This document shows positions 3,331 to 49,865 of a stretch of 64,000 nucleotides of DNA, piece by piece. The translations under genes were made by a program, and so were the position numbers. Source of the DNA: Streptomyces sp. NBC_00539 (GTDB taxonomy: Bacteria > Actinomycetota > Actinomycetes > Streptomycetales > Streptomycetaceae); the NCBI RefSeq assembly GCF_036346105.1, contig NZ_CP107811.1, positions 1,550,001-1,614,000 on the forward strand. The letters run 5' to 3'. The notes under the pieces were generated by a model. That model made no database searches. It was not told the DNA's origin and saw nothing but the letters and a program-made list of their open reading frames with translations. Each line of letters opens with the position of its first letter. Position 1 is the first letter of the stretch.

Positions 3331-3334
3331 AGCG

Positions 3335-9855: not shown

Positions 9856-10893
9856 ATGTTCACAGGGGAGGGACCGGATTCAGGCTTCGCAGAGCTGGAC
9901 GACGTCAGCGCCACCGCGTACGGGCTGGCCGTCGAGTCCGGCCGCTTCGTACGCGAACAGGTCGCCGAGCAGTTGTCCCTGACGCCCGAGGAGATCGACC
10001 GGGTCGAGCGCGTACTGCGCGGCGTGCGCCTGCTGCAGTCGATGCCGGGGAACCCCGCCGAACTCACCCCCGTCACTCCCGACGTGGCCGCCGCTTCCCT
10101 GGTGGCGCCCGCCGAGCGACAGATCCGCGACCTCCAGCAGGCGGTCACCGACGTACGCGCCAAGCTCCTGTCGCTGACCCCCCTCTACTTCGAGGGCCGC
10201 AGGCTGCGCAACCGGCTCGAGGCCTTCGACATCATCACGGACGTCTCGCGGATCCAGGCGATGCTCGACCACCTGAGCCAGAACTGCAAGAGCGAGCTGC
10301 TCACGGTGCAGCCAGGTGGCGCGCGGCCGGCCGATCTCCTCGACCAGGCCCGGGAGTCGGCCCTGTCCACCCTGGCCCGCGGGGTGCAGATCCGCACGAT
10401 CTACCAGCACACGGCCCGCAACGACCTGCCCACCCGCTCCTACGTCCGCGACGTGACCCGGCATGGCGCCGAGATCCGTACCGCCGACGAAGTGATCGAC
10501 CGGCTGATCATCTACGACCGGGAGGTCGCCTTCCTGCCTGAACGTTCCTCCGTGGGCTGCGCTCCGGGCGCGGCGATCGTCCGCGAGCCGACGCTCGTGG
10601 CGTTCCTGTGCTCCGTCTTCGAGTACCTCTGGGACGGCGCGTCGGTCTACGTGGTGGAGTCCCAGCGGTCCACCGCCTCCTCCGACGAGCTGAGGTGGTC
10701 GATCATCCGGCTGATGGCGAAGGGGTACAAGGACGAGATGGTCGCCCGCCGGCTCGGCATGTCGGTACGCACCTGCCGGCGCCACATCGCCGACATCACC
10801 GAGGAACTGGAGGCGACGAGCCGCTTCCAGGCCGGCTACAACGCGGCCCGCCAGGAGATGCTCTCCGGCGATTCGGCCCCCTCGCCCGGCTGA
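9856..10893 (+). CDS. LuxR-type helix-turn-helix regulator with N-terminal sensor region
   Basis: A protein of 345 aa. The N-terminal third is helical (AYGLAVESGRFVREQVAEQL..., LTPEEIDRVERVLRGV). The middle resembles the TrmB/phospholipase-D-like region found in stand-alone Streptomyces LuxR regulators (ARESALSTLARGVQIRTIYQHTARND...RTADEVIDRLIIYDREVAFLP). The C-terminus is a LuxR-like helix-turn-helix (IIRLMAKGYKDEMVARRLGMSVRTCRRHIADITEEL). ATG at 9856 was chosen over the in-frame GTG at 9844 because GGGGG sits at the right distance. Divergence from the bldA-codon peptide gene suggests the pair is co-regulated. The effector and targets are unknown. Confidence 0.8.
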   Translation: MFTGEGPDSGFAELDDVSATAYGLAVESGRFVREQVAEQLSLTPEEIDRVERVLRGVRLLQSMPGNPAELTPVTPDVAAASLVAPAERQIRDLQQAVTDVRAKLLSLTPLYFEGRRLRNRLEAFDIITDVSRIQAMLDHLSQNCKSELLTVQPGGARPADLLDQARESALSTLARGVQIRTIYQHTARNDLPTRSYVRDVTRHGAEIRTADEVIDRLIIYDREVAFLPERSSVGCAPGAAIVREPTLVAFLCSVFEYLWDGASVYVVESQRSTASSDELRWSIIRLMAKGYKDEMVARRLGMSVRTCRRHIADITEELEATSRFQAGYNAARQEMLSGDSAPSPG

Positions 10894-10934: not shown

Positions 10935-11789
10935 TCACCAGCCCGTGTCCCCGTCGAGCGCCTCCGTGATGGCGTCCACGCAGTCCTGGTCGAGCATCGT
11001 CGTCACGTGGGCGTCCTGGAGCCGGCCGAAGCCCGCGTCGTACACGGCGGCGCTGACGACGTAGCCGCCGTCGAGCGGGAAGGTACGGAAGATCCACTCG
11101 TCCCCGGTGCCCGCCGTGCCGTCCGGCCGCTGGACGCGTACCGGCCTGCCGTCCGGGCCGAAGCCGAACTCGGTGAACCGGAACTGCATTCCCTGCCCGA
11201 TGGCCTTGCTGTACGCCTCCTTGAGGGTCCACAGCCGCACCAGCGCGCCGTTGCGTTCCGCTTCCGGCATGCCCGACAGCAGCACCGACTCGTAGGGCGT
11301 GCAGATGTGGCGGCCGAGTCCGCCGCTGTACATCTCCCGGTCGGCCCGTTCCGCGTCGACGCCGATCAGGCCGCAGGTCGTCAGGCCGACGAGCAGCAGG
11401 TCCTCGGTGTGGCTGAGGCTGATGTCGATCTGGTCGCAGCCGCGCAGGTACGGGCGGCCGGTCGGCCCGTACGCCAGTTCCAGGTCGGCGGGATCACTGG
11501 CGAGCACCGCTCCCGCCGCGTGCTTGAGGAGCATCCGGGAGGCGATGTAGCGGTTGCGGACATCGGCGTGCGTCAGGTCCAGGAAGCGCGTCCAGTCGCG
11601 GCCGAGCAGCTCGCGCAGCCCGTCGCCGGACGGCAGGCCCGGTTCCAGGTCCCTGAGCCACGCGTAGATCAGGGCGGTTCCGTGGGTGGCGAGGTCCTCC
11701 CGGACCCGGTCCCATGACGTGCCCCCGGGAGCGACCGCCACGGGCTCGCCGAGCGGGGGGCCGAGCGTGGGACTGCCCGGGGCGGTCAT
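10935..11789 (-). CDS. 4'-phosphopantetheinyl transferase, Sfp type
   Basis: A protein of 284 aa, the last gene of the FAAL-to-PPTase operon. Motifs are GPTGRPYL (108-115), ISLSHTEDLLLVG (123-135), GVDAERADREMYS (143-155, metal ligands D145 and E147) and LWTLKEAYSKAIGQG (186-200, K190, E191, K195). The spacing is that of the broad-range Sfp/Svp class used in secondary metabolism. The start codon shares a base with the stop of the preceding ACP gene (TGATG), so the enzyme is made together with the carrier proteins it most likely activates. The C-terminal 60 residues or so are less conserved but keep the beta-rich end of the family. Confidence 0.92.
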   Translation of the reverse strand: MTAPGSPTLGPPLGEPVAVAPGGTSWDRVREDLATHGTALIYAWLRDLEPGLPSGDGLRELLGRDWTRFLDLTHADVRNRYIASRMLLKHAAGAVLASDPADLELAYGPTGRPYLRGCDQIDISLSHTEDLLLVGLTTCGLIGVDAERADREMYSGGLGRHICTPYESVLLSGMPEAERNGALVRLWTLKEAYSKAIGQGMQFRFTEFGFGPDGRPVRVQRPDGTAGTGDEWIFRTFPLDGGYVVSAAVYDAGFGRLQDAHVTTMLDQDCVDAITEALDGDTGW

Positions 11790-12025
11790 CAGCGGTACTC
11801 CTTCACGAGGGTGTGGATGTCGCGCAGGCTGCGCGCCTCCATCAGGCGGTGCACCGGGACGCGGTGGCCCGACTCCTCGAGGAGCGCCACCAGCCGGAGC
11901 AGGTTGAGGGAATCCCAGCCGGGCAGGTCCACCAGTGCGGTGTCGGCGCCCGCCGGGCCGGGGAGGTCCAGGCCGAGGTCGTCGCGGACCGTCCGGAGGA
12001 ACACGTCGACGTTATCGAGACTCAT
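11789..12025 (-). CDS. Discrete acyl carrier protein (glyceryl-ACP type by context)
   Basis: A 78-aa carrier protein with the phosphopantetheine attachment serine in LPGWDSLNLLRLV. It is placed directly after an FkbH-like gene, overlapping it by 14 bases, and before the Sfp-type PPTase (TGATG overlap). In tetronate clusters the ACP following FkbH receives the 3-carbon glyceryl unit from 1,3-bisphosphoglycerate; I infer that role here from gene order. Within the cell it would be a cytoplasmic shuttle between the FkbH-like loader and the KSIII-like enzyme. Confidence 0.88.
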   Translation of the reverse strand: MSLDNVDVFLRTVRDDLGLDLPGPAGADTALVDLPGWDSLNLLRLVALLEESGHRVPVHRLMEARSLRDIHTLVKEYR

Positions 12026-13955
12026 CCGCCGGCCTTCTCCCCAGGGTCGCGGTGACGCGCACGTGCCCGGGGACGTCCGGCACCCGCGTCAGATCATGGT
12101 GGAACTCCACCGAAATGTCCTCGCGCCCTGCTGGAGCAGCCCGCTCCGTGAACCCGCAGGAGGGGTAGAAGTCGCGGACGCGGTGGTTGCGTGCGGTGGG
12201 TACGTAGCGGGCGGTCACGGCGGACAGCCCGAGATCGCGGGCGTGGGCCAGCAGCACCGCCAGGACGGCCCGTTCGATGTCGCGGCCGAGCACGCGGCAG
12301 CTGAGCCACATGCCGTCCAGCCGCAGCGTCCCCGCCCCGAAGGTGCCGAGCACGGCCGCGACGAGGCCGTTGGCCCCGAACCGGTCCGCGGTGCGGGCGG
12401 CGAGCAGCAGCCTGGCCGGGTCGGCGGCCAGCGCCACCAGCTCCGGCTCGAGGTGGCCGCCGCCGGTGAGGTTGAACTGGTTGGTGCGCAGGCTCAGCTG
12501 GGACAGGCGTGCGTACTCGTGGGCGCGGGGCGGCCCGAGGTCGAGGGCGACCTCCAGCGCCCGCAGGAACTCCTCGTGGGAGGTGCCGGCGTGGAGCAGC
12601 GCCCGGCGCTCGCGTTGGCGGTGGTACTCGCCGGTCCGGGCCCGGTCCTCGTCGGTGAGCCGCAGGGTGTCGAACCAGCCGTCGGCGAGCAGCCGGGTCA
12701 CGTGCAGCGCCGGTTCGTCGTCGAGGGGCACGACGGCCACCCCGGGCGCGCCCTGGCGTACGCGGGCCCGTTCGGCCGGTGAGTCGTCGGCGAAGACGAG
12801 CGCGTCGGGGCCGAGGTCCAGCGCTCGTGCGATGTCGAGGAGGTTGCCGTCCTTGGGCTGCCAGTTGGCGTTGATCCGGACGAAGTCCTGCTCGCGCAGC
12901 GTCATGTCCGGGTGGGTGCGCAGGGTCTCCAGGACCGGTTCCTCGTCGTTCTTGCTGCTGACGGCGAGCAGCACGCCCTGGGAGGCGAGTTGGCGCACGC
13001 ACCTCTGGAAGGCCCCGAAGGCTTCGCCGCGCAGGGTGCCGGCGGCGGCGATGCCGTCGGGCCCGTCCTCGCCGAGCACTCCGTCCCACAGGGTGTGGTC
13101 GAGGTCGAGCACCAGGCACTTGCGGACGGGCCCGCGGACGGCGCGCGCCAGGTGGGCGACCTCGCGGGCGTACGCGGCGAGGAGTCCCGCGCCGAGCCGC
13201 ACCTTGCCGTAGCGCTCCAGGCGGGGGTCGGTGACGGGGCCGCCGTCGCCCACGAGGGGTTCGAGGTCGATCACCACGAGCCGGGCGGCGGACTCGGTCA
13301 GGCGCAGCAGCCGGGCGTTGAACTCCCGCCAGACCGCGCCGAGCCGGGCCCGGGAGCGGTGGTCCACCAGCTGCCGGCTGGAGGAGCGGGGCAGCGGGAG
13401 CGTGTTGAGCACGAGCGTGCCGGGGACGGCGTCGGCGAGTGCGGCGCACCGGGACAGCACCTCCTCGCCGGCCGCCTCCACGTCCTCGGGCCGCCACACC
13501 GCCGGGACCTGCGCGAACAGGGTCTCGGCGTCGAGCAGGCACAGGGTGAGGTCGGGGGCGGGGGTGCGCAGCGGGCTGCGGGGGTCGGTGAGGTCGCGCA
13601 GGTACGTGCCGTACTCCCCCACCACCGGCCGCAGCAGCATGCCGTGGCGCGCCAGTTCGCCCGTGAGCGGGTCGATGACGTGGCCGACCGTGGACTGGCC
13701 GGTGACGGCCACCGTGACGACGGGGGTGTGCGGGTGGTGTGCCAGTACGGCGTCGGGGTCGACCCGGGCGAGCAGGCGGCCGGCCTTCGCCGGGTCCGCC
13801 GCGGCGCCGGTGCCGTGGGAGCCGCCGGTGCCGTGCAGGCCGCCGGTGCCGCTCTGGTCGGTGTCCTGCGCGAGGAGCGCCGGCACCTGGTCGTAGGCCT
13901 TCTCCACGAGTCCCCGCGCGTGCAGTTCGCGCAGGCGGTCCAGTGCGTTGGTCAT
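12012..13955 (-). CDS. FkbH-like HAD-IIIC glyceryl loader with C-terminal GNAT-like domain
   Basis: A protein of 647 aa of the FkbH family. The HAD motif LVLDLDHTLWDGVLG (about residues 282-296; the two Asp of DxDxT are the nucleophile and the acid/base) is intact, followed by VSSKNDEEPV and VFADDSPAERARV, the later HAD motifs. The last 160 residues or so resemble an acetyltransferase fold (ARYVPTARNHRVRDFYPSCGF). The family dephosphorylates 1,3-bisphosphoglycerate and loads glycerate on an ACP; some members feed methoxymalonyl-ACP pathways and others tetronates. None of the usual methoxymalonyl partners (FkbI, J, K, G) are adjacent, while a KSIII gene is, which favours a tetronate or glycerate role. 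It starts seven bases after the KSIII stop. Confidence 0.9.
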   Translation of the reverse strand: MTNALDRLRELHARGLVEKAYDQVPALLAQDTDQSGTGGLHGTGGSHGTGAAADPAKAGRLLARVDPDAVLAHHPHTPVVTVAVTGQSTVGHVIDPLTGELARHGMLLRPVVGEYGTYLRDLTDPRSPLRTPAPDLTLCLLDAETLFAQVPAVWRPEDVEAAGEEVLSRCAALADAVPGTLVLNTLPLPRSSSRQLVDHRSRARLGAVWREFNARLLRLTESAARLVVIDLEPLVGDGGPVTDPRLERYGKVRLGAGLLAAYAREVAHLARAVRGPVRKCLVLDLDHTLWDGVLGEDGPDGIAAAGTLRGEAFGAFQRCVRQLASQGVLLAVSSKNDEEPVLETLRTHPDMTLREQDFVRINANWQPKDGNLLDIARALDLGPDALVFADDSPAERARVRQGAPGVAVVPLDDEPALHVTRLLADGWFDTLRLTDEDRARTGEYHRQRERRALLHAGTSHEEFLRALEVALDLGPPRAHEYARLSQLSLRTNQFNLTGGGHLEPELVALAADPARLLLAARTADRFGANGLVAAVLGTFGAGTLRLDGMWLSCRVLGRDIERAVLAVLLAHARDLGLSAVTARYVPTARNHRVRDFYPSCGFTERAAPAGREDISVEFHHDLTRVPDVPGHVRVTATLGRRPADESR

Positions 13956-13962
13956 CGGTGCC

Positions 13963-14997
13963 TCACACCTTCTCCAGGGCGAGCCCGGCGCGGAACCACC
14001 GGCTGGATTCCACGCACAGGGCGAGCGCCCGCGTCCCCGTGGTGAACTGCGGGAGCAGCCGGTCCAGTTGGTGGAACGGCAGGGCGTTGCCCGTGTTGCC
14101 GGTCTCGGAGACGCAGGAGACCTCCCGGGCGGAGGTGGCCGGCAGCCGTTCCACGATCCTGGCGGTCATCCGCCCGGACAGCTGGGGCGGCAGCAGGAAG
14201 CCGATGTCGTCGAGGTTCCAGCCGAGGCCTCCGAGGAGCTCCCAGAGGATCTCGGCGGTGATCGTCGGCACGTGTTCCTCGATCGCCTTGTAGTCCTCGG
14301 CGAGCATCCGCCGCCCGGAGTGGCGGTCGGTGGTGCCGTACCAGTCCAGCAGCTGACCGGGCGCACGCCCCTGTCCGGTCCAGGAGTTGAGCACGGCCCG
14401 TACGGCGACGCGCTCGCCCTCGGGTTCGTCCGTGAGGACCGCGGCGCCCGCCCCGTCCCCGAACAGGACGTAGTTGACCAGTTCCTCGCGCGGCATCCGG
14501 GCCGCATCGGGGGTGGCCGACAGGAACCGGTGGGTGACGTCCCCGCCGACGACCAGGCCGGCCCGGCGTCCGCCACGGACGAGGGTACGGCCGAGGTCGA
14601 GGGCCTGGATCGCACCGGAGCAGCCCGCCTGGATCTGGAAGACCGGCAGGTGGCCGAGGCCCAGCCGGTCGGCGACCTCACTGGCGGTGGTGGGCAGGAG
14701 GGTGTCGGGGGTGGCGGTCGCGAGGATCAGGAACTCGATGTCGGCGGGGCCGAGTCCGCTGCCGTCGACGGCCTGTGCGGCGGCTTCGGCGCACAGGTCG
14801 GCGAGGGTGCCGCGGACCTCCCCGGTGGCCGGGTCCCAGCCGAAGTGGCGGGTCTTGGTGCCGACGAAGAGGTCGATCCACTCCTCGCCGACTCCCAGCA
14901 GGGCGGCCAGGGCGGTGTTGTCCACGGGGGCCCCGGGCAGCGCGGTGCCGGTCGCGGCGAGGTAGACGGTGCCGCGCTCGGCGGCCGTCGCGCTCAT
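13963..14997 (-). CDS. KSIII (FabH)-like ketosynthase with altered active site
   Basis: A protein of 344 aa of the 3-oxoacyl-ACP synthase III family. The nucleophilic cysteine is present (QAGCSGAIQAL, about residue 128) and the late Asn region is present (GNTGNALP, about 302). The usual PHQAN motif carrying the catalytic His reads LPPQLSGRM (about 269), so the His is not at its normal place. Such KSIII-like proteins in tetronate clusters (RkD, AbyA1) join glyceryl-ACP to a beta-ketoacyl thioester and close the ring, and others act as acyltransferases. The gene overlaps the KS-AT-ACP gene upstream (ATGA) and is followed by FkbH and ACP, the AbyA1-A2-A3 order. Confidence 0.88.
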   Translation of the reverse strand: MSATAAERGTVYLAATGTALPGAPVDNTALAALLGVGEEWIDLFVGTKTRHFGWDPATGEVRGTLADLCAEAAAQAVDGSGLGPADIEFLILATATPDTLLPTTASEVADRLGLGHLPVFQIQAGCSGAIQALDLGRTLVRGGRRAGLVVGGDVTHRFLSATPDAARMPREELVNYVLFGDGAGAAVLTDEPEGERVAVRAVLNSWTGQGRAPGQLLDWYGTTDRHSGRRMLAEDYKAIEEHVPTITAEILWELLGGLGWNLDDIGFLLPPQLSGRMTARIVERLPATSAREVSCVSETGNTGNALPFHQLDRLLPQFTTGTRALALCVESSRWFRAGLALEKV

Positions 14998-17924
14998 GCC
15001 GACCTCGCCATGATGACGTCGCCGAGGAACGCGGCGAGCGAGCCGACCGAGCGCAGCGCGGGCAGCATCTGCTGGACGGAGACTTCGCCGGCCCGGGGCA
15101 GCCGGGCCTCGACCCGGTTCTTGAGCTGCATGATCATCACCGAGTCGAAGCCGAGGTCCTCGTGGAAGCGGGCTTCGCGTACGACGCGTTCCCTGGGGTA
15201 GCCGCCCACCTCGCTGACGGCCGCGACGACGGCCAGGAGGACCGGGTCGTCGTCGCGGTCGGGTGCCGCGGCCGGCGGGGGCACCGGCGCGGCCACCGGC
15301 TCGGGCGCGGGAGCCGGGGCCGGGGCCTGCCGGTCCCAGTAGCGGTGGGCGGCGGAGAACACGTACGGGGCGAGGGCTTCCACCACGCGGTGTTCGGGCT
15401 CGTACAGCTCCTCCCACCGCGGGTCCAGCCCGCACCGGTGGAGGGCGGCGACCGTCTCGGCGAGCTCGCGGCCGGTCGCGGCCCCGCCGGGGGCCGGATG
15501 CAGGAACTCCGCCCCGGTGGCGCGCCCGCCCCGGCCGGCGATCTCCAGCAGTTGGCTGCGCGGCCCGATCTCGATCAGGTGGGTCGGGGCGATGTCCGAG
15601 ACGAGCGCTCCCAGCGCGGTGTCCATGAGCACGGGCTCCTCGATCTGGTCCGCCCAGTAGTCGGCGTCCATGGGTTCGTGGCGCAGCATCCGGCCGTACC
15701 GGGTCGAGGCCAGCGGCAGCACGGGAGCCGCGCAGCGCACCGGCATCGTCCGCAGGTCCGCCGCGGCCGGGCCGAGCAGGGGTGAGTGGAAGGCGTGGGC
15801 GACGGGCAGCGATGTGGTCTTGACGCCGCGGAGGCCGAGCTCCTTGGCGATGCGGGCCAGGGCGTCGAGCGGGCCGGACAGCACCGTGTCGGTGGGGCCG
15901 TTGAGCGCGGCGGCCACCACTGCGGGCTCCCGGGCGAGGACCTCCGCCAGTTCGCCGGGGCCGGCGACGACGGCGGTCATACCGCCGCCCCGGGGCAGTT
16001 CGCTCATCAGGGCGCCCCGCCGGACCACCAGCCGGGCGGCTTCGCCGAGTTCGAGCGCGCCCGCGGTGACCGCGGCCGCGTACTCCCCGAGGCTGTGGCC
16101 GAGCACGGCGGCGGGGGTGACACCGAGCGAGGTGAGGGTGCGGGCGAGGGCGTAGCCGACGGCGAACAGCGCGGGCTGGGCGAACTCCGGCCGGTGCACC
16201 CGCTCGTCACCGCTGAGGATCAGCTCGCGCACCGAGGTCCCCAGGTGGCCGGCGAGGGCTTCGTCGGCCTCCCCGAGGTGGCGGCGGTAGGCGGGGGACT
16301 CGCGGTGGAGCCCGGCCGTCATGCCGGGGTACTCGGTGCCCTGCCCGGTGAAGAGGAAGGCCACCACCGGTCTGCCCCAGGGGCGGGCGGCTCCGGCCGT
16401 GTCGGGGCGCCCGGCCGCCTCGCGGAGCGCGTCCGCCAGCTCGTCGCTGTCGCGCACGGTGGCGGCGAAGCGGTACGGCAACCCGGTCTTGATCCGGTTG
16501 CTGCTCCAGCACAGGGCGGCCGCCGCGCCGCGCGGGCGCCGGGCCACCGCCTCGGCCTGCGCGGCGAGGTTGCGGCGCAGCGCCTCGGGGGTGTCGGCGC
16601 TGAGGGTGAAGACCCCCACGGCGCCCCGCGCCGCCCGGGCCCCGGTGGGGCGGGTGCGGGGCGCGCCGGGGCGGGGGGTGCGGGGTGCGGTGGCCAGGAC
16701 GGCGTGGGCGTTCGTACCGCCCATGCCGAAGCTGCTGACTCCGGCGAGGCTCTCCCCGCGCGGCAGCCGCATCGGCGACTTGAGCAGTCGCAGGCCGCGT
16801 TCGGCGAGCCGCAGCCGGGGGTTCTCCCGGCCGGCGTGGAGGCTGGCGGGCACGATGCGGTGGTGCAGGGCCAGCGCCGTCTTGATCAGGCCGGCGATGC
16901 CCGCGGCGCCTTCGGTGTGGCCGAGGTTGCCCTTGACGGAGCCGATCGCGCACGGCGTCTCGCGCACGGCGCCGTGCACCGCGCCGAGCGCCGCGCACTC
17001 GATGGCGTCGCCCAGGACGGTTCCGGTGCCGTGGGCCTCGACGAACGCGATGTGCTCGGGGGTCGTGCCGGCCCGCCGGTACGCGGAGTTCAGTACCCGC
17101 TCCTGCGACCAGCGGTTGGGGGCGATGACCCCGTTGCTGCGGCCGTCCTGGTTGACGGCGCTGCCCCGCAGCACCGCGTAGACCCGTTGGCCGTCCGCGA
17201 GCGCGTCGTCCAGCCGGCGCAGCACCACGAGGCCGACGCCGTCGCCGCGGCCGATGCCGTCGGCGTCCGCGCTGAACGGTTTGCAGCGCCCGTCGGAGGC
17301 GGCGAGGCCGAGCTGTTCGTACACCAGGCCCAGTGAGGGCGACAGGACGATGTTGACCCCGCCGGCGAGGGCGGTGTCGCATTCCCCGGTGAGCAGCGAG
17401 GAGGCCGCGAGGTGGACGGCGACGAGCGAGGACGAGCAGGCGGTGTCGACGGCGAGGCTCGGCCCGGTGAAGTTGAAGTGGTACGAGATCCGGTTGGCCG
17501 CCATCCCGGCGCTGCTGCCCGCGCCGAGCAGCGGGGTCACCCGGGCGAGGTCGCTCATGGTGAGCCGGCCCCACTCGCCGCCCATCACTCCGACGAACAC
17601 CCCGGTCTCGGTGCCGGAGAGTTCGCCGGGCGCGCGGCCGGAGTCCTCCAGCGCACGCCAGGCGCAGGGCAGCAGCAGCCGGTGGTGGGGATCCATGGCG
17701 GCGGCTTCGCGCGGGGCGACGGAGAAGAAGTCGCTGTCGAAGACATCGGCGTCGTCGATGAAGCCGCCGCTGCCGCAGACAGCGGGGAACTCCCGGTCCT
17801 CCCAGCGCTGCGCGGGGACCGGGCCGATACCGCTCCCGCCGCGCACCAGCAGGTCCCAGTACGCCTGCACGCCCGCCGCCCCGGGGAACGTGCAGTCGAT
17901 ACCGACGAGGGCGATGTCCCCCAT
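14994..17924 (-). CDS. Single-module type I PKS: KS-AT-ACP
   Basis: A 976-aa polyketide synthase with one minimal module. The KS (residues 1-430) has [16 protein letters not shown] and NLGHTEGAAG. The AT (about 530-830) has GHSLGE and HAFHS, the malonyl-type signature. The ACP (about 880-970) has FHEDLGFDSVMIMQLKN. No ketoreductase, dehydratase or thioesterase is present, so it would deliver a beta-ketoacyl-ACP. It has no long N-terminal docking helix. Position: downstream of FAAL, the acyl-CoA-dehydrogenase-like gene and an ACP (TGATG overlap), and upstream of KSIII. I infer a single malonyl extension of a fatty acyl chain to give the beta-ketoacyl substrate of the KSIII-like enzyme, as RkE-type chemistry requires in RK-682-like tetronates. 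Confidence 0.9.
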   Translation of the reverse strand: MGDIALVGIDCTFPGAAGVQAYWDLLVRGGSGIGPVPAQRWEDREFPAVCGSGGFIDDADVFDSDFFSVAPREAAAMDPHHRLLLPCAWRALEDSGRAPGELSGTETGVFVGVMGGEWGRLTMSDLARVTPLLGAGSSAGMAANRISYHFNFTGPSLAVDTACSSSLVAVHLAASSLLTGECDTALAGGVNIVLSPSLGLVYEQLGLAASDGRCKPFSADADGIGRGDGVGLVVLRRLDDALADGQRVYAVLRGSAVNQDGRSNGVIAPNRWSQERVLNSAYRRAGTTPEHIAFVEAHGTGTVLGDAIECAALGAVHGAVRETPCAIGSVKGNLGHTEGAAGIAGLIKTALALHHRIVPASLHAGRENPRLRLAERGLRLLKSPMRLPRGESLAGVSSFGMGGTNAHAVLATAPRTPRPGAPRTRPTGARAARGAVGVFTLSADTPEALRRNLAAQAEAVARRPRGAAAALCWSSNRIKTGLPYRFAATVRDSDELADALREAAGRPDTAGAARPWGRPVVAFLFTGQGTEYPGMTAGLHRESPAYRRHLGEADEALAGHLGTSVRELILSGDERVHRPEFAQPALFAVGYALARTLTSLGVTPAAVLGHSLGEYAAAVTAGALELGEAARLVVRRGALMSELPRGGGMTAVVAGPGELAEVLAREPAVVAAALNGPTDTVLSGPLDALARIAKELGLRGVKTTSLPVAHAFHSPLLGPAAADLRTMPVRCAAPVLPLASTRYGRMLRHEPMDADYWADQIEEPVLMDTALGALVSDIAPTHLIEIGPRSQLLEIAGRGGRATGAEFLHPAPGGAATGRELAETVAALHRCGLDPRWEELYEPEHRVVEALAPYVFSAAHRYWDRQAPAPAPAPEPVAAPVPPPAAAPDRDDDPVLLAVVAAVSEVGGYPRERVVREARFHEDLGFDSVMIMQLKNRVEARLPRAGEVSVQQMLPALRSVGSLAAFLGDVIMARSA

Positions 17925-18271
17925 CAGCGCTGGTCCCGCGCGGGCGCCAGGGTGGCGGACGGGGCGTCTTCGGTGGCCGGGGCGGGCACCGGGAGGACCT
18001 GCTCCAGGTGCCGGACCAGTGCGGTCACGGTCGGGTGGTCCCACAGCAGGGTGGGTTCGACCTCCAGGCCGAACTCGTCCTCCAGGTCGCCGCAGAGGCT
18101 GAGCGCCGCCACGGAGTCCATTCCGTACTCGGCGAGCGGCACGCCCGGGTCGATGCTCTCGGGCGCGCGGCGCAAGTACAGCGAAAGCCGGTCCATCAGC
18201 CACTCGTGCGGCAGGACCCCGCCGCCCGTGGTGGTGGGGTGTGTGCCGGTCAGGGCGCTGGGAACGGTCAT
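17924..18271 (-). CDS. Discrete acyl carrier protein (FAAL partner)
   Basis: A 115-aa carrier protein with the attachment serine in LAEYGMDSVAALSLCGDLEDEFG. The N-terminus has a Thr/Gly-rich extension and the C-terminus an Ala/Pro-rich tail. It follows the FAAL and acyl-CoA-dehydrogenase-like genes and overlaps the KS-AT-ACP gene by one base (TGATG). FAAL enzymes transfer acyl-adenylates to such ACPs, so this is the likely loading ACP. The start at 18271 is supported by GAAGGAGA at six to seven bases; the longer frame upstream belongs to another gene. Confidence 0.9.
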   Translation of the reverse strand: MTVPSALTGTHPTTTGGGVLPHEWLMDRLSLYLRRAPESIDPGVPLAEYGMDSVAALSLCGDLEDEFGLEVEPTLLWDHPTVTALVRHLEQVLPVPAPATEDAPSATLAPARDQR

Positions 18272-18327
18272 CGTGGTCTCCTTCGATGCGTACGGGGCGT
18301 GCGGCCGCCGGGGTCGCCCGGGGGGCG

Positions 18328-20091
18328 TCAACCGGGGATCGGGGTGGAGTAGAGGTCGTAGCTGATCTGGGTGCTGAACCGGAGCTGGACCTCGTGCCGG
18401 ATCCGCGTCTCGCACTCCGGCGGCAAGTCCGCGACCCGGGTCCCCAGCCGCCGGGCGATGCGGTGCAGCGCGGCGGCGGCCCAGCACGGGTCGGCGAGGA
18501 ACGGGTCGGGTCCGTAGCGGGCCTGGTCCCACAGCCCGAGTACGGCGGCCGCCGCCAGGAGCAGCGCGTAGCGGTCCATGAGGGCGAACCGCGCGGGCTG
18601 CGCCGTGGACGCGGACCCGGCGGCCTCCAGCCGCAGCACCCGCCGGCGGACGTCGCGCAGTTCCTCGACGAGCTGCCCGGCCAGGGTGCGCAGGGCGCGT
18701 TCGACGGGACCGCTGCCTTCGACGCCCGCGGCGACCACCAGCATCGACGCGGTGAGGGAGTCCCGCCCGCAGGCCAGGCTCAGCCGGTCGGTGCGCAGCG
18801 GCGGCAGGTCGCCGCGCAGCCTGAACAACCCGGCCGGCGCCTCGTCCTCGATGAACCACGAGCTGCGGGCCAGGCGCGGCATCTGGGGGATGACGGTGGC
18901 CTGGCACGCGACGGTACCGGCGTGGCCGAGGCTGAGCACGGGCACGTCCCGGACGTGCTTCTGGAAGATCCCGAGGGTGCCCTCGCGGGTGTAGAACCCG
19001 GAGCCGAGGACGATCGACAGGTCGTACATGGTCTCGGTGAGCACCCGCGGCAGCAGGTACTTGAGCGCCGCCGAGTAGACGCTGGTCTCGGCGGGCAGCA
19101 GGTGCAGGGCGCGGGTGGCGACGACGGCGAGGCTGTCGTACAGCAGCAGGTTGACGAACGCGTTGGTCAGCGCGGCGCCGGTCCGGCCGTCGATTCCGCG
19201 GCCCTGCCAGCCGCCGGAGTTCTCCCGGTCGAAGCGGACGGCGGTGCGCAGGCTGGTGTCGAGCGCCGCGACGGCGGTCGCGGAGATCACCGTACGGCTG
19301 ATCTGGAAGGACCGCAGGGCGGTCTCGATGCCGCTGCCCTCGGGCCCCAGCAGGGCGGACTCGGGCACCGGACAGTCGTCGAACTCGACACCGGCCCAGC
19401 GGCAGCCGCGCAGCCCGACGTGGGTGCGCCGGGCGGCGACCGCCGTACGGGCGTCGGTCAGCTGCTCGGGGTCCAGCAGCAGCACCGAGTGGCTGCGGCT
19501 GCCGGGCGCCGGGTCGGTCCGGCAGAACAGGACCAGGGCGCCGGCCCGTTCCAGGTTGTTGACCATCGGCTTGCCGCCGCTGATCAGGTAGCCGCGCGGG
19601 CCGCGGCGCGCGGTGACCTGGCTGCGGACGTAGTCGTTGCTGTGGGCGGTCTCGTGCTGGGCGATGGCCGCCTTGCCGCCGCCGCGCAGCAGTGCGGCGA
19701 GCCGGTGGCGCTGGCGGGAGCTCCCGGCGGCCCACACGTCGGAGGCCGCCATGAAGGTGGTCATGCCGTGTCCCATGGCCAGGCCCACGTCCCGGCGGAG
19801 CACCGGGCGCATGATCCTCACCAGGGTGTCCATGCCGTCGAGGCGTCCGCCCAGGGCGCGCGGCACGTACTCGTCGGTGATCCGGAAGTCGTCGAGCAGC
19901 GCCTCGCCGGCGGCGAAGGGCACGGCGGCCCGGTCCGCTTCCAGCAGCGCGGTGTAGCCGACGGGGTTGGCCGGGTCCGAGGGGTCGCCGAACAGTGCCT
20001 CCAGCCGGGCGACGCGCTCGCGCACCGCACTCTCCCGGTGGTGGGCGTCGCGGCCCTGCGCCACGGCCGGGTCGCCGAGCAGCGACGTCAC
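18328..20091 (-). CDS. Acyl-CoA/acyl-ACP dehydrogenase-like flavoprotein, extended
   Basis: A protein of 587 aa, clearly longer than the usual 380-400. The N-terminal half follows the acyl-CoA dehydrogenase pattern (AIAQHETAHSNDYVR...GYLISGGKPMVNN, then VEFDDCPVPESALLGPEGSG). The C-terminal helical domain has LGSGFYTREGTLGIFQKHVRD, matching the family GGxGYTRExPxxRxxRDAR. Where medium-chain enzymes have the catalytic glutamate in YEGT, this protein has HAGT, so the standard base is missing. An extra C-terminal region of about 150 residues is Arg/Ala-rich. The start is GTG at 20091, overlapping the FAAL stop by four bases (GTGA). In FAAL-ACP systems these enzymes usually desaturate the acyl-ACP; here activity is uncertain. 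Confidence 0.82.
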   Translation of the reverse strand: MTSLLGDPAVAQGRDAHHRESAVRERVARLEALFGDPSDPANPVGYTALLEADRAAVPFAAGEALLDDFRITDEYVPRALGGRLDGMDTLVRIMRPVLRRDVGLAMGHGMTTFMAASDVWAAGSSRQRHRLAALLRGGGKAAIAQHETAHSNDYVRSQVTARRGPRGYLISGGKPMVNNLERAGALVLFCRTDPAPGSRSHSVLLLDPEQLTDARTAVAARRTHVGLRGCRWAGVEFDDCPVPESALLGPEGSGIETALRSFQISRTVISATAVAALDTSLRTAVRFDRENSGGWQGRGIDGRTGAALTNAFVNLLLYDSLAVVATRALHLLPAETSVYSAALKYLLPRVLTETMYDLSIVLGSGFYTREGTLGIFQKHVRDVPVLSLGHAGTVACQATVIPQMPRLARSSWFIEDEAPAGLFRLRGDLPPLRTDRLSLACGRDSLTASMLVVAAGVEGSGPVERALRTLAGQLVEELRDVRRRVLRLEAAGSASTAQPARFALMDRYALLLAAAAVLGLWDQARYGPDPFLADPCWAAAALHRIARRLGTRVADLPPECETRIRHEVQLRFSTQISYDLYSTPIPG

Positions 20092-21899
20092 CAACGCCGG
20101 CCTCCGTCGGCTCCTTCCGGCCGCAGCAGGTCTTCGCCGAACAGCACGTCGTCGGCGCGGGCCAGGGCCCGTACGTCCGGGGTGAGGACCTCGTACTCGC
20201 CGCGCACCACGCCGTCGAGGAACAGGGTGCGCATCAGGGTGCGCTGCACCTTGCCGCTGCTGGTGCGGCGTACGGCGCCGGGCCGGACCAGCAGCACGTT
20301 GCCGGCCGGGATCTCGAACTCCTTGCCGATCAGCGCCTGGATCTTCTGCGCGACGGTCCTCAGCTCCGCGGAGCCGGCGCCCCGCACCTCCTGGATGAGG
20401 ACGAGGTGTTCGCGGCCGGCGTCCACGGAGAACGCGGCGCCCACACCGAAGGTCAGGGCCGGGCTGACGGTCCGGGCCGCCCACTCGATGTCCTGCGGGT
20501 AGACGTTGCGGCCGTTGATGATGATGACTTCCTTGAGGCGTCCGGTGACGTACAGCTCGCCGTCGTCGAACATCCCGAGGTCGCCGGTGCGCAGGAAGCC
20601 GCTCTCCTCGTCGTTGAGGCTGGCGCGGAAGGTCCGGATGGTCTCGGTGGGCCGCTTCCAGTAGCCGCGGGCCACGCTGTATCCGCGCAGCCAGATCTCG
20701 CCGACGGCGCCGGGCGGCAGCTCGTGGTGGGTCAGCGGGTCCACGATGCGCACCTCGATGTCGACCGGCTTGCCGCAGCCGACCAGCGTCTGCACCCGCT
20801 CCTCGGCGCCCGCGCCGGCGGCCCGGTCGCGTTCCAGGGCGCTCTTGTCGAAGTCCTTGCGCACGTGGGGGGTGCCGGGGGTGCCGCCGGAGACGACGAG
20901 GGTCGCCTCGGCCAGTCCGTAGCAGGGCCGCAGCGCCTCGGGCCGGAAACCGGCGGGGGCGAAGCGGGCGGCGAACTCGTCGAGGCTCTCGGGGCGGACG
21001 GGTTCGGCGCCGTTGAGGGCGAGGCGCCAGCGGGACAGGTCGAGGGCGGCGACCTGTTCGTCCTTGACGCGGCGCACGCACAGGTCGTAGCAGAAGTTGG
21101 GGCCGCCGCCGACGGTGACGCCGTACTCGTCGATGGCCTGGAGCCAGCGCAGGGGCCGCTTGACGAAGGACAGCGGGGTCACCTGCACGCTGTGCGTGCC
21201 CAGCCAGACGGGGTGCAGGAGGTGCGCGACGAGGCCCATGTCGTGGAAGTACGGCAGCCAGCTGCCGAAGCGGTCCTCGCGGGTGGTGTGGAGCAGCTTC
21301 TGCAGCGCGGCCTGGTTGGCGAGCAGGTTGCGGTGGGTGACGGTCACGCCGCGCGGTTCGGAGACGGACCCGGAGGTGTACTGGAGGAAGGCGTAGTCGT
21401 CCTGGCGTACGGTGACGGGCCGCCAGGCGTCGGCGTCGCCGATCCCGGGGACGTCGCTGACCACGCAGGCCGCGTCGGGGCGGGAGTTGCGGGCGAGCCA
21501 GAGGGCGACCTCGGGGGCGGCGGCCGTCTCGGTGAGGACGACCTTCGCGCCGGTGTCCTGGAGGACGGCGGTGGTGCGGTTCAGCCGCTTGTCGCGGCCG
21601 GCCTCGCCGGGCAGCGGAACGGGAACGGCGACGGCGCCCGCGTAGAGGCAGCCGGCGAAGGCCTTGAGGAACTCGACGGTCGAGGAGTAGGCGAGCAGGA
21701 CGGGCTGCTCGCCCACCCCGTATTCCTGGAGGCAGGCGGCGATCCGTCTCGCCTCCCGGTCCAGCTCCCCGTAGGTGAGGTGTTCGGCCACCGTTCCGCC
21801 TGCGGTGTCGCGGAGGAAGATGTGCACATCCTCGTCGGCGAGTTCCGCCGCCCGCGCGCGGAGCAGTTCGGTGAAGGTGGCGAAGCGTGACTCTGACAT
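20088..21899 (-). CDS. Fatty acyl-AMP ligase (FAAL)
   Basis: A 603-aa AMP-forming ligase of the FAAL type. Motifs are LQYTSGSVSEPRGVTVTHRNLLAN (the A3 loop with the FAAL-typical 'PRGV'), WLPYFHDMGL, PCYGLAEATLVVSGG, FLRTGDLG, and TSSGKVQRTL with the C-terminal catalytic lysine. FAALs activate free fatty acids to acyl-adenylates and load them on an ACP instead of CoA. This gene is first in the minus-strand operon ending at 10935. The start at 21899 was chosen because GAGGGG lies nine bases upstream; ATG at 21908 is also possible but has no spacer. The long open frame upstream of it (to 22691) is an antisense shadow of the acyltransferase gene. Confidence 0.92.
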   Translation of the reverse strand: MSESRFATFTELLRARAAELADEDVHIFLRDTAGGTVAEHLTYGELDREARRIAACLQEYGVGEQPVLLAYSSTVEFLKAFAGCLYAGAVAVPVPLPGEAGRDKRLNRTTAVLQDTGAKVVLTETAAAPEVALWLARNSRPDAACVVSDVPGIGDADAWRPVTVRQDDYAFLQYTSGSVSEPRGVTVTHRNLLANQAALQKLLHTTREDRFGSWLPYFHDMGLVAHLLHPVWLGTHSVQVTPLSFVKRPLRWLQAIDEYGVTVGGGPNFCYDLCVRRVKDEQVAALDLSRWRLALNGAEPVRPESLDEFAARFAPAGFRPEALRPCYGLAEATLVVSGGTPGTPHVRKDFDKSALERDRAAGAGAEERVQTLVGCGKPVDIEVRIVDPLTHHELPPGAVGEIWLRGYSVARGYWKRPTETIRTFRASLNDEESGFLRTGDLGMFDDGELYVTGRLKEVIIINGRNVYPQDIEWAARTVSPALTFGVGAAFSVDAGREHLVLIQEVRGAGSAELRTVAQKIQALIGKEFEIPAGNVLLVRPGAVRRTSSGKVQRTLMRTLFLDGVVRGEYEVLTPDVRALARADDVLFGEDLLRPEGADGGRRW

Positions 21900-22055
21900 C
21901 CGCGGCATCCCCTCGCGTCTGCGGGCCCCCGTGGAGTGGCGGACCTCGTCTTCGCGCCGATGGTCCCCGTACGTCCTTAAGGGGCGCTTGCGCGCGTCGC
22001 ACTCAGGGGGTGGCAGGGGTGCGCGGAGCCTGGGGGCGGGCAGGAGGCTCGGGGC
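21900..22055. promoter_or_regulatory. Divergent control region with paired AGGGG(G)T motifs
   Basis: A 156-base region between FAAL (minus) and the acyltransferase gene (plus). It contains CCTTAAGG (palindromic, about 21975-21982) and two direct motifs, CAGGGGGT (22004-22011) and CAGGGGT (22014-22020). AGGAGG (22041-22046) is the ribosome site for the plus-strand gene. Related AGGGGT motifs occur upstream of the MFS gene, the aminomutase gene and a PKS gene. Confidence 0.4.
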
Positions 22056-23039
22056 ATGAACACCAACACCGACACCAGTGCCGACGCCGGGGCCACGCAG
22101 CCGTCGGCGCTCGTCTTCCCCGGGATGCAGCCGACCGCCTTCTCCGAGGTCGCGAAGTTCATGCTGGTCAACCCGTACGCGCGCGAGCTGTACGCGATCG
22201 CGGACGAGGTGCTCGGCTACCGGCTGGCCGACCGCTACCAGCAGACGGAGGGCGACTATTCCCTGTACGGGCAGATCTCGTTCGTCGTGAACTGCCTGGC
22301 GCTGGCGCGCTGGGCGGCGGACCGGCTGGACGTCACCCCTGCCTTCGTCACGGGTCCCAGCTTCGGCGCGCGGGCCGCCGCCGTGCACTGCGGGGTCCTC
22401 GAATTCCCCGACGCGGTACGGATGACGGCACGGCTGGCGACCGTGATGGACGAGTACTTCGCACGCGAGCACCCGGCCCTGGTGACCCAGTCCATCGCGC
22501 GGGTGCCGCAGGAGAAGGTGGAGCTGCTGCGGCGGGAACTCGACGAGCGGGGCGAGTGGAGCGACGTCTCCTGCGTCGTCGACCACGACTTCACGATGCT
22601 GACGGTCCACGAGTCCGTACTGGACTGGCTCCAGCGGCGGATCCGCTCGCTGGGCGGGATGCCGATGTACACGATGAAGCCGCCCATGCACTCGTACCTC
22701 TTCGGCGGGCTGCGGGACCGGGTGGACGCGGAGGTCTTCGACGCGATGACCTGGTCCGAGCCCCGGCTGCCGGTGGTCGCCGACCAGGACGGCCGGGTGG
22801 TGACCACCGGCGAGGGCGTGCGCGGCATGCTGCTGGACGGCTTCGTACGGACGGTGCGCTGGCCCGACGTGGTGGACACCCTGGCCCGGGCGGGGGTCGG
22901 CCGGCTGTACGTGTCCGGGCAGGACGGGCTGTTCACCCGGGTGGCCTGCACCACGCGCGCCTTCGAGGTGGTGCCGATGACGCCCCGCTCCGCGATGCGC
23001 CCGGCGCCGCGCCGGATGCCGGTGGCGGCTGCCGCCTGA
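22056..23039 (+). CDS. Stand-alone acyltransferase (malonyltransferase fold, VinK-like)
   Basis: A 327-aa protein with the fold of FabD/PKS AT domains. The nucleophile elbow is GPSFGA (S102) where most have GHSxG, so the residue before Ser is Pro rather than His, and the catalytic His is in KPPMHSYLF (about 210). The N-terminal FPGxQ is altered to FPGMQ. Similar stand-alone acyltransferases in macrolactam clusters (VinK) move aminoacyl units from a discrete ACP to the PKS loading ACP. Here it lies near a discrete ACP, two adenylation enzymes and an aminomutase, so I infer an aminoacyl or acyl shuttle. A malonyltransferase role is the alternative. A strong AGGAGG site precedes the ATG. Confidence 0.8.
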   Translation: MNTNTDTSADAGATQPSALVFPGMQPTAFSEVAKFMLVNPYARELYAIADEVLGYRLADRYQQTEGDYSLYGQISFVVNCLALARWAADRLDVTPAFVTGPSFGARAAAVHCGVLEFPDAVRMTARLATVMDEYFAREHPALVTQSIARVPQEKVELLRRELDERGEWSDVSCVVDHDFTMLTVHESVLDWLQRRIRSLGGMPMYTMKPPMHSYLFGGLRDRVDAEVFDAMTWSEPRLPVVADQDGRVVTTGEGVRGMLLDGFVRTVRWPDVVDTLARAGVGRLYVSGQDGLFTRVACTTRAFEVVPMTPRSAMRPAPRRMPVAAAA

Positions 23040-23111: not shown

Positions 23112-24710
23112 TTACTTGCCGTCCACGGTGAAGGCGTAGAAGGTGCCGGAGGTCAGGCTGCCCGTGGTGCCGGCGCCCTGGCTGAACCGGGCGTAGCCGT
23201 TGCCCCAGTAGACGGTGCCGTCGACGACGGCCGGGCCCGCGTTGGAGGAGTACGGCGCGTCGAACTCCCACAGGTACTTGCCGGTCGCCGCGTCCAGTGC
23301 GTACATCGCACCGCTGGTGGAGCCGCCGAAGACGACACCGTTCGCGGCGGTCAGGGCGCCCCAGGCGTAGCCGTCGGTCTTGTCGGCGACCTGCCACAGG
23401 ATCCGGCCCGTCTGCGGGTCGAGCGCCGCGAAGGAGCTGCGGGTGGTGGAGGCGCCGCCGGCCAGGGTGTACGGCATGCGGAAGAAGTTGGCCTCGGCGA
23501 GGTAGATCCGGCGCTCGTCGTTGGCGGTGCCCCACTCGATGCCGCCGATGTGGCCGCCGGGGCCGGCCGCCGCGCTCCAGACCACGTCTCCGGTGGTGGC
23601 GTCGAGGAGCCAGTACTCCCCGCTCTTCTCCCCCGCGCCGATCACCTTGCGGGCGTGGCCGTCGGCCGCCTTGATCGTGAACAGGTGGGCGCCGTCGCCG
23701 AAGTCGTAGTCGTTGCCCGGGTTGGGCGGGCAGTTGTTGGGCGGGAAGCCGGGGATGCAGCCGGTGTTCCAGGCGTCGAAGCGGCCGGAGCCGGTGTGCC
23801 ACTTGATGCGGCCGGTGGTCATGTCCAGTGCGAGCACCGAGTCGACGTAGTCGTCGGGCGCCAGGCACTGGCCGGGGGTGCCGCCGGCGCTCTGGCAGTC
23901 GCTGGCCGCCTGGGGCACCGTGTAGTTGTTGCCGGTGGTGAAGTACACCGTGTTGGTCGACGGGTCCAGGGCCGGGGTGCCCCAGACGGCCACGCCGCTG
24001 TATCCGCCGGTCTTGCCGCCGTTGTCGGGGACCGTGTATTGGCGCCACAGCAGGTTCCCGGTGGCGGCGTCGAGGGCGTTGACGCTGCCGCGGAAGGTGC
24101 AGCAGGGGTAGGCGGGATCGAGGGCGCCCTCGGACTCGCGGGAGGAGACGCCCTGGTAGATCACGCCGTTGTGGACGACGGGCGACTGGGTCAGGACCGA
24201 CTTGTACTGCGAGTCGATCTGCTTGCTCCACACCAGGTTTCCGGTGGCCGCGTCGACCGACATGAGGACGGCCTTGTCCCAGTCCGCGATGTACACCCGG
24301 CCGCCGACCACGGTGGGGCTGGTGCGGGAGACCGAGTTGGGGTTACCGGTGTAGTCGGACACCTTGCGCGACCAGACGGGGTTGCCCGTCTTGGCGTCCA
24401 CCTTGTGCAGGTAGCCGCCCCAGTCGGGGAAGTAGACCGCGCCGCCGGTCACCGCGGGGGTGGCGGACACGTCGCCGTGGGTGGTGAACGTCCACTTGGC
24501 CTTGAGCCGGCCGACGTTCCACTTGTTGATGGTGTCTTCCTGCGGGTTGGACCGGCTGTTGCGGATGTCGTGGCCGCCGGTCGGCCATGTCTCCGCGAGG
24601 TACGCGGCGTTGGTGGGCTGCGTGGTGACGAGGGTCGCGGTCATCGCCGCGATGGCGAGCAGGACGAACCTGCGGACCGCTCCCTGCCGTGACCAGGGTC
24701 TTGTGCGCAT
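23112..24710 (-). CDS. Secreted PQQ-like beta-propeller dehydrogenase
   Basis: A 532-aa protein with a Sec-type signal peptide (basic start, hydrophobic core FVLLAIAAMTATLV, likely cleavage after TNAA). The rest is a repeated beta-propeller of quinoprotein type: blades contain the recurrent VxxxDAxTGxxxW pattern (VDAKTGNPVW, VDAATGNLVW, LDAATGNLLW, LDATTGDVVW, LDPQTGRILW, LDAATGKYLW). A vicinal cysteine pair (PCCTFRG) is present, a feature of PQQ alcohol dehydrogenases. It resembles polyvinyl-alcohol-dehydrogenase-like proteins. It should act outside the membrane, possibly oxidising an exported product or a precursor. No PQQ biosynthesis genes are in the window. It follows the adenylation gene at 24847 by 136 bases on the same strand. 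Confidence 0.8.
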   Translation of the reverse strand: MRTRPWSRQGAVRRFVLLAIAAMTATLVTTQPTNAAYLAETWPTGGHDIRNSRSNPQEDTINKWNVGRLKAKWTFTTHGDVSATPAVTGGAVYFPDWGGYLHKVDAKTGNPVWSRKVSDYTGNPNSVSRTSPTVVGGRVYIADWDKAVLMSVDAATGNLVWSKQIDSQYKSVLTQSPVVHNGVIYQGVSSRESEGALDPAYPCCTFRGSVNALDAATGNLLWRQYTVPDNGGKTGGYSGVAVWGTPALDPSTNTVYFTTGNNYTVPQAASDCQSAGGTPGQCLAPDDYVDSVLALDMTTGRIKWHTGSGRFDAWNTGCIPGFPPNNCPPNPGNDYDFGDGAHLFTIKAADGHARKVIGAGEKSGEYWLLDATTGDVVWSAAAGPGGHIGGIEWGTANDERRIYLAEANFFRMPYTLAGGASTTRSSFAALDPQTGRILWQVADKTDGYAWGALTAANGVVFGGSTSGAMYALDAATGKYLWEFDAPYSSNAGPAVVDGTVYWGNGYARFSQGAGTTGSLTSGTFYAFTVDGK

Positions 24711-49784: not shown

Positions 49785-49865
49785 TCTGGGTCCCACCGAG
49801 TCCTTGTTCATGCCGAGAGGTCGAGTCGATCCGGGGTCGGGTGCACCGGGGCGCGGTCGCGCCGG

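Follow-up and report, generated by a model that had tools for sequence, protein, structure and literature searches.

The window analyzed here, a stretch of 64,000 nucleotides from the 7.5 Mb genome of Streptomyces sp. NBC_00539 (contig NZ_CP107811.1, positions 1,550,001 to 1,614,000), carries an operon of eight genes that probably constitutes a stand-alone assembly line for an acyl-tetronate, built from a free fatty acid and a glycerol-derived unit; the probability of this reading was estimated to be about 85%. The eight open reading frames (ORFs), all of them intact, lie in one contiguous series on the minus strand (21899-10935) and encode, in this order, a fatty acyl-AMP ligase (FAAL), an acyl-CoA dehydrogenase (ACAD)-like flavoprotein, an acyl carrier protein (ACP1), a single polyketide synthase (PKS) module composed of ketosynthase, acyltransferase and ACP domains (KS-AT-ACP), a ketoacyl-ACP synthase III-like protein (KSIII), an FkbH-type protein, a second ACP (ACP2) and a phosphopantetheinyl transferase (PPTase). 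These domain assignments were upheld by Pfam and NCBIfam. The FAAL and ACAD genes overlap by four bases (GTGA), as do the KS-AT-ACP and KSIII genes (ATGA), the junctions ACP1/KS-AT-ACP and ACP2/PPTase each read TGATG, and the FkbH and ACP2 genes overlap by 14 bases; gaps were found at two junctions, ACAD/ACP1 (56 bases) and KSIII/FkbH (7 bases). An initial annotation had described eight coupled genes on one strand, and its coordinates and all of its junctions agree with these.

The FAAL (21899, or the in-frame ATG at 21908, to 20088) is predicted to activate a free fatty acid for ACP1. It matches Pfam AMP-binding above the cut-off, and its top NCBIfam matches include the FAAL families PRK05850, PRK09192 and FadD32, all below their own cut-offs. 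The ACAD-like flavoprotein (20091-18328), referred to here as type b, may be an oxidoreductase acting on acyl-ACP1, with an atypical active site. Its Acyl-CoA_dh_M match lies below the Pfam cut-off (27.3 versus 33.3 bits), and its relatives in the PDB are ACAD chains. All 27 type-b copies carry LGHAG (GHAG[ST] or GHAGP) in place of the GEGT of FadE3, and all 27 have Ser or Thr at what we take to be the catalytic base position of isovaleryl-CoA dehydrogenase (IVD); an acidic residue was found neither there nor at the position presumed to correspond to the base of medium-chain acyl-CoA dehydrogenase (MCAD). H390 is invariant (22/22). The lack of the usual glutamate together with the invariant LGHAG is a point beyond the initial annotation. 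Type-a ACADs, by comparison, contain FDGNT in 17 of 17 copies. Relatives of types a and b together were found in at least 107 of 247 genomes of the genus (E≤1e-25), and at the sampled loci without a KSIII they often adjoin a FAAL and a PPTase. Operons of the form FAAL-ACADb-(ACP/KSAT-like)-PPTase without KSIII were observed at L178, L179, L181, L183 and L187, and at L180 without a detected PPTase.

ACP1 (18271-17924), the predicted carrier of the activated fatty acid, has a PP-binding match, and the serine of its DS motif is kept in 69 of 69 sequences. The KS-AT-ACP protein (17924-14994) contains the motifs DTACSSS, EAHGTGT, KGNLGHT, GHSLGEY, HAFH and GFDS, of which HAFH presumably denotes malonyl specificity. 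In the loci most similar to that of the window (class I, defined below), the ketosynthase Cys and two His are present in 32/32, and the acyltransferase Ser in 29/32 (two Gly and one gap). No ketoreductase, dehydratase or enoylreductase domain was detected with Pfam, so a β-ketoacyl thioester should be left on the module; with its active-site motifs, this protein is the predicted source of that thioester in the operon.

The KSIII (14997-13963) is predicted to be a tetronate-forming enzyme of the AbyA1/RkD type, on the basis of its clade and its residues. It has Cys126, Pro271 in place of the FabH His, N301 and N304. The Cys, the PPQL motif and both Asn of GNxGN were found in all 104 tetronate-type KSIIIs compared, whereas five of seven outgroup sequences have HQAN, a sixth carries another motif and the seventh Pro in the aligned column. 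The closest PDB chain is 5by7 (E 2.2e-104), which shares the PPQL motif; FabH-type chains come next, at E 3.4e-26 or worse. No paper on 5by7 was found in the open-licence literature. The FkbH-type protein (13955-12012), a predicted glyceryl transferase/phosphatase and glyceryl-ACP2 synthase, scores 270.6 bits against NCBIfam TIGR01686 (cut-off 146.65), with no Pfam match at 0.001. Its haloacid dehalogenase motif (D, D, T) is intact in 31 of 31 class I sequences, and the cysteine of its SCR motif, which we take to be catalytic, in at least 95% of 86 sequences. ACP2 (12025-11789), the predicted glyceryl carrier, has a PP-binding match and the WDS serine in 89/89 sequences; in class I the serines of both ACPs are kept throughout. 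The PPTase (11789-10935) matches Pfam ACPS above the cut-off and NCBIfam HetI and AcpT below it, and its relatives also stand beside FAAL-ACADb units without KSIII.

RK-682 is a 3-acyl-5-hydroxymethyl-tetronate, and from gene order we guess that rkA-rkC encode a FAAL, an ACP and a KS-AT-ACP. Its pathway comprises the KSIII RkD, the FkbH protein RkE and the ACPs RkC and RkF within a minimal set of six genes (PMC3625739, PMC4979870, PMC5819245). The chemistry invoked in the initial annotation, the joining of a glyceryl-ACP and a β-ketoacyl-ACP, is documented there for RkD, RkE and the Rk ACPs, and the equivalence of KSIII-FkbH-ACP to the order AbyA1-A2-A3, which the same annotation drew, is given in PMC3625739. 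The operon shares KSIII, FkbH and ACPs with the RK-682 pathway; compared by description rather than by sequence, it differs in its internal ACAD-like flavoprotein and PPTase, and in its linkage to an AfsA gene, about 18 kb away from the KSIII gene. The agglomerin cluster of Pantoea agglomerans PB-6042 (HF565364.1, 8,009 bp) has seven ORFs (PMC11350110) and likewise makes up a compact line for a 3-acyl-tetronate, with no room for a modular PKS (PMC11350110, PMC4979870). Unlike the operon, it includes Agg4 and Agg5, which make an exocyclic methylene; no relatives of either were found in the genome containing the window at E≤1e-10. KSIII, FkbH, ACP, Agg4 and Agg5 are described as the abyA1-A5/abmA1-A5 set. 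Spirotetronate and polyether tetronate clusters (abyA1-A5, abmA1-A5, mad genes) thus share KSIII, FkbH and ACP with the operon, in the abyA1-A3 order, but their β-ketoacyl source is a modular PKS, as opposed to the FAAL and single KS-AT-ACP of the operon.

The first genes of the operon resemble the starter units of the lipopeptides friulimicin, taromycin, malacidin and rotihibin, in which a FAAL, one or two ACADs and an ACP follow in order and the ACADs are held to install lipid double bonds (PMC9113097, PMC8552735). The order FAAL-ACAD-ACP is common to both, the ACADs having been compared by description only, whereas the chain passes to a condensation domain of a nonribosomal peptide synthetase in the lipopeptides and would pass to the KS-AT-ACP and KSIII in the operon. 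Foxicin biosynthesis has an FkbH domain in a different architecture (PMC5318452). In the open-licence literature, no paper on a tetronate with a fatty acyl-AMP ligase was found and, among the matches listed, none on this operon. To our knowledge, few products of FAAL-fed acyl-tetronate lines have been described.

The relatives of the operon place it among these pathways. A search of the 247 genomes with the KSIII (E≤1e-60) yielded tetronate-type KSIIIs in 45 genomes, at 50 places, of which 41 were examined (the second G226 copy, G028, G168, G047, G050, G105, G097, G138 and G070 were left out; the G138 locus was fetched later and stands outside the tree). A FAAL was found at 34 of these 41 loci, in 33 genomes, and FAAL-fed acyl-tetronate lines are recurrent in the sampled Streptomyces genomes. 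An alignment scan of a collection of named genomes gave 72 KSIII loci, the first 25 of which (L080-L104) are from Streptomyces or Kitasatospora, the closest being Streptomyces cirratus JCM 4738 (94%). After removal of ten identical loci and the non-relative L151, with plasmid matches included only as L078 and L079, 104 loci were sorted into classes by the genes that were detected in the flanking sequence fetched, as a rule 10 kb on each side. Class I, the type of the window (n=32), has a FAAL and a type-b ACAD and, by definition, no type-a ACAD, Agg4 or Agg5. Class II (n=25) combines a FAAL-ACAD-ACP-KSAT-KSIII line with Agg4 (23/25) or Agg5 (21/25). Class III (n=12) has a FAAL line in which no ACAD was detected, with Agg5 in 11 loci and Agg4 in one. 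Class IV (n=31) has no FAAL and shows the spirotetronate arrangement, with Agg4 in 30 and Agg5 in 30; the KSIII signature of the operon is common to its loci. Four loci were not classed, three of them on short contigs. Across all 104 loci, Agg4 was detected in 54, Agg5 in 62, FkbH in 86 and ACP2 in 99; classes II and IV are defined by Agg4 or Agg5, so that their counts are partly by construction. At one sampled locus the Pfam types of Agg4 and Agg5 are a 2-oxoacid dehydrogenase acyltransferase and an alpha/beta hydrolase, matching AbyA4/AbyA5 and Agg4/Agg5 of the literature. It is class II that ties the FAAL line to tetronate chemistry, since the same line occurs there together with Agg4 or Agg5. 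Overall, several versions of the line can be told apart by the presence or absence of Agg4/Agg5 and by zero, one or two ACADs, accessory genes from which the chemistry of ring and chain can be predicted.

The eight-gene order is uninterrupted in 30 of the 32 non-identical class I loci, which confirms its recurrence in other genomes and indicates an arrangement beyond chance; the exceptions are L092, with a split ACAD, and L106, in which FkbH and ACP2 were not detected. With L092 left out, the overlap is -4 at the FAAL/ACAD junction in 29/31 loci, -1 or -4 at the ACP1/KS-AT-ACP junction in 31/31 and -4 or -1 at the ACP2/PPTase junction in 27/30, the start nearest the stop having been picked by script, which favors such values. 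With L092 and L106 left out, the operon proteins were found to co-diverge with the KSIII (r 0.88 to 0.93; 0 of 500 permutations as high).

In a maximum-likelihood tree of the 104 KSIIIs and seven outgroup sequences, the window KSIII falls in one clade with the KSIIIs of loci carrying FkbH, ACP, Agg4 and Agg5, the clade being anchored by gene neighborhood and not by a deposited AbyA1 or RkD sequence. Outside it lie five FabH-like KSIIIs and one further KSIII-like protein from the same genome and, with the outgroup, a non-tetronate KSIII family protein from L078. Class I and two truncated loci make up one group (support 22). The class IV sequences branch from within the FAAL-fed loci; the node of 97 sequences that holds it has a support of 100, and its closer relations 38 to 55. 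This nesting suggests that modular PKS clusters may have taken their ring-forming cassette from small fatty-acid lines, a suggestion to be read with the weak inner support and the uncertain root of the tree.

Gene content, order, conservation and family membership are observations; every chemical step that follows we infer from them. The FAAL would adenylate a free fatty acid and load it onto ACP1, itself activated by the PPTase of the operon. The ACAD-like flavoprotein may then oxidize acyl-ACP1, most likely introducing one double bond; this is the weakest of the steps. From its domains, the KS-AT-ACP would add one malonyl unit and leave a β-ketoacyl thioester, and the FkbH protein, going by its family, would move the glyceryl unit of 1,3-bisphosphoglycerate onto ACP2. 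Finally, the KSIII, as its clade and signature suggest, would join the β-ketoacyl and glyceryl units by a C-C and a C-O bond, releasing a 3-acyl-5-hydroxymethyl-tetronate. At the same threshold as above, Agg4 and Agg5 relatives were not found in nine of ten class I genomes, including that of the window, whereas three of three class II controls were positive; in the tenth class I genome (G038) both are present, at a separate tetronate-type cluster. The absence of such relatives from the window genome leads to the prediction that the hydroxymethyl group is kept, as in RK-682. The predicted product is an RK-682-like 3-acyl-5-hydroxymethyl-tetronate, whose acyl chain may carry one double bond. The acyl-tetronate interpretation of the initial annotation is strongly supported by the KSIII clade and signature, the gene order and a KS-AT-ACP without reductive domains. 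The line had also been called self-contained, a word that needs qualifying: the AfsA gene and a nearby LuxR/helix-turn-helix (HTH)-type gene (32/32 class I loci) travel along with it, and the ACAD oxidation is unexplained by the comparison with RK-682.

Several points weigh against this interpretation. The operon has no known product or activity, and its pathway is a prediction. The double bond is uncertain because an acidic base is absent from both usual positions of the ACAD, and the chain length accepted by the FAAL is unreadable from its sequence. Some relatives look damaged, the KS-AT-ACP frame being broken in G101 and the ACAD split in L092. The support for the class I grouping is low, that for the placement of class IV is weak, and the root lies on a long branch (1.20). 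Co-divergence is unspecific: a neighboring PptT-like PPTase reaches r 0.92, and much of the signal is therefore accounted for by common ancestry of the region. The β-ketoacyl pool could also serve the linked AfsA, in which case the tetronate would perhaps not be the sole product.

The flanking regulators bear on what the product is for. On the PPTase side of the operon follow the LuxR/HTH-type gene (9856..10893, plus strand, convergent with the operon), a PptT-like PPTase, a phosphoesterase, a large ATP-binding LuxR (LAL) regulator, a polyprenyl synthase-like gene and an AMP ligase, the phosphoesterase and LAL regulator having been named by inspection. The LuxR label was also given by inspection, with only weak NCBIfam matches; a relative in NZ_CP107837.1 is annotated as a helix-turn-helix regulator. 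Beyond the window lies the AfsA gene (-4238 to -3234), and then a Streptomyces antibiotic regulatory protein (SARP) gene. A tetronate resembles a γ-butyrolactone, and the product might be a signalling molecule rather than an antibiotic, with AfsA and the LuxR protein in the same circuit, an explanation that we consider possible but unlikely. AfsA relatives were found in 28 of the 247 genomes (E≤1e-20), namely in 23 of the 45 KSIII-positive genomes versus 5 of the 202 others (Fisher p 1.7e-15, related genomes being treated as independent), and in 22 of the 23 the gene lies 3.9 to 24.8 kb from that of the KSIII on one contig (in the last, on another contig). A LuxR/HTH relative stands near all class I loci and co-diverges with the KSIII (r=0.91). 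AfsA genes are, however, the usual regulators of antibiotic clusters, so that linkage alone is insufficient. Moreover, 15 of the 37 genomes tested by class lack AfsA (six of class II, five of class III and all four of class IV); the 22 positive ones comprise all ten of class I, 11 of class II and one of class III (G116, locus L052, with Agg4 and Agg5). AfsA and the LuxR gene also occur at loci without tetronate genes (L172, L173, L175, L176). The AfsA-positive genomes without KSIII are G012, G209, G031, G154 and G120: in G031 and G154, AfsA adjoins the LuxR gene and a PPTase, and in G120 the only nearby gene of note is a 29% KSIII match. At L172 (G209) and L173 (G012), a reduced version of the operon was observed, with AfsA beside FAAL-ACADb-ACP1-PPTase, LuxR and SARP genes, and no KSAT, KSIII, FkbH or ACP2. 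AfsA is thus as closely associated with the FAAL-ACAD-PPTase-LuxR genes as with the tetronate genes. A more elaborate proposal, which we hold to be less likely again, is that the operon, AfsA and LuxR form one hormone-like system in which a FAAL-fed β-ketoacyl pool would be split between glyceryl-ACP (to a tetronate, by the KSIII) and dihydroxyacetone phosphate (to a butanolide, by AfsA), the tetronate itself would signal, and the LGHAG flavoprotein would oxidize acyl-ACP unlike ordinary ACADs. The tight linkage of AfsA makes such a connection between tetronates and butanolide-type signalling testable.

On the FAAL side, the operon adjoins a macrolactam-type cluster, a neighbor that is not part of the tetronate line. 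Its first gene encodes a VinK-type acyltransferase (22056..23039, plus strand; Pfam VinK_C), beyond which lie a pyrroloquinoline quinone (PQQ)-type β-propeller protein, two adenylating enzymes, a small ACP, an aminotransferase-like protein, a KamA-like radical SAM protein (below its cut-off) and a major facilitator superfamily exporter. Of five long ORFs, four were scanned with Pfam and are modular PKSs, and that at 33270-49811 ends in a thioesterase. The operon might supply a building block or side chain to this PKS, in which case the product would be a macrolactam carrying an acyl-tetronate or acyl unit; we judge this improbable. Of the 32 class I loci, 11 have VinK beside the FAAL gene; all 11 belong to one clade of 15 members (support 100), and none of the 17 loci outside that clade shows this adjacency. 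The distance between KamA and VinK in the 11 genomes is 6 to 7.5 kb, and VinK co-diverges with the KSIII (r 0.93 across the 11 loci). Between the LAL regulator and pqqC, G054 has the same gene order, except for one extra predicted gene and the small ACP gene, uncalled there. In G101, and perhaps in the genomes of L092, L096 and L103, a more distant VinK relative (46 to 58%; 48 to 58% in the latter three) is separated from the operon by roughly 40 to 100 kb (89 kb in G101), the distances in the latter three holding if contig numbers match record names. Against such a supply role, the fetched flanks of 21 of the 32 class I loci lack VinK, the PKS has its own terminal thioesterase, VinK is divergent from the operon, and in G101 VinK sits within a cluster of another arrangement. 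The operon is retained in four nested members of the clade whose genomes gave no match to either KamA (E≤1e-30) or VinK (E≤1e-60); the macrolactam cluster was probably lost as a block there while the operon stayed. An obligate macrolactam-tetronate hybrid was rejected for this reason. VinK is common (50 of 247 genomes), and its overrepresentation among the class I genomes sampled from the genus is weak on its own (5/10 versus 45/237, p 0.03); adjacency, not frequency, is the telling evidence for coupling. Streptomyces cirratus JCM 4738 and S. virginiae NRRL ISP-5094 each carry the operon, and the macrolactam genes adjoin it in S. cirratus only. The operon and the macrolactam cluster are long-time neighbors, and the former can do without the latter.

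The extender-unit alternative, in which FkbH, ACP2 and the ACAD would make a hydroxymalonyl- or methoxymalonyl-type unit for a PKS by the logic of FkbG-K, draws on the co-occurrence of FkbH, an ACP and dehydrogenases in methoxymalonyl-ACP pathways (PMC7489565). It was rejected as very unlikely: no O-methyltransferase or second dehydrogenase stands beside FkbH in the operon, ACAD relatives accompany a FAAL and PPTase at loci without FkbH, and the KSIII of the same operon falls in the tetronate clade. Least likely of all, and also rejected, is a KSIII of the CerJ/ChlB3 type, an O-acyltransferase that would attach the acyl chain to another molecule: such proteins exist in related clusters, but tree and residues group the window KSIII with those of Agg4/Agg5 loci, in a comparison that included no verified CerJ or ChlB3 sequence, and behind 5by7 and the FabH-type chains no chain named CerJ was present among the best 60 of 117 PDB matches, so that the grouping by which the initial annotation would have been overturned was not seen.

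Some further observations concern the surroundings of these genes. The PQQ-type β-propeller gene (23112-24710, minus strand; signal-like N-terminus of the protein) and pqqBCDE-like genes beyond the window (L005:4365-7369, equivalent to about 88365-91369 in window coordinates) stand at either end of the macrolactam-type PKS cluster, a block that is collinear in G054; among the matches listed in the open-licence literature, no title on PQQ with a macrolactam was found. The AMP ligase and polyprenyl synthase-like genes stand end to end (window 1666-4240), and a relative of the latter lies beside the class I operons of G101 (57%) and L045. A class I operon with AfsA and SARP genes was found on a 292 kb linear plasmid of Streptomyces sp. 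NBC_00523 (L078, NZ_CP107837.1), 9 kb from a 14 kb gene annotated as SDR family oxidoreductase and a further KSIII gene. Tetronate-like plasmid cassettes of the form KSIII-FkbH-ACP-E2 acyltransferase were also observed in the alphaproteobacterium Methylosinus trichosporium (pOB3b3, L192) and in Pseudalkalibacillus hwajinpoensis (Bacillota, L193).

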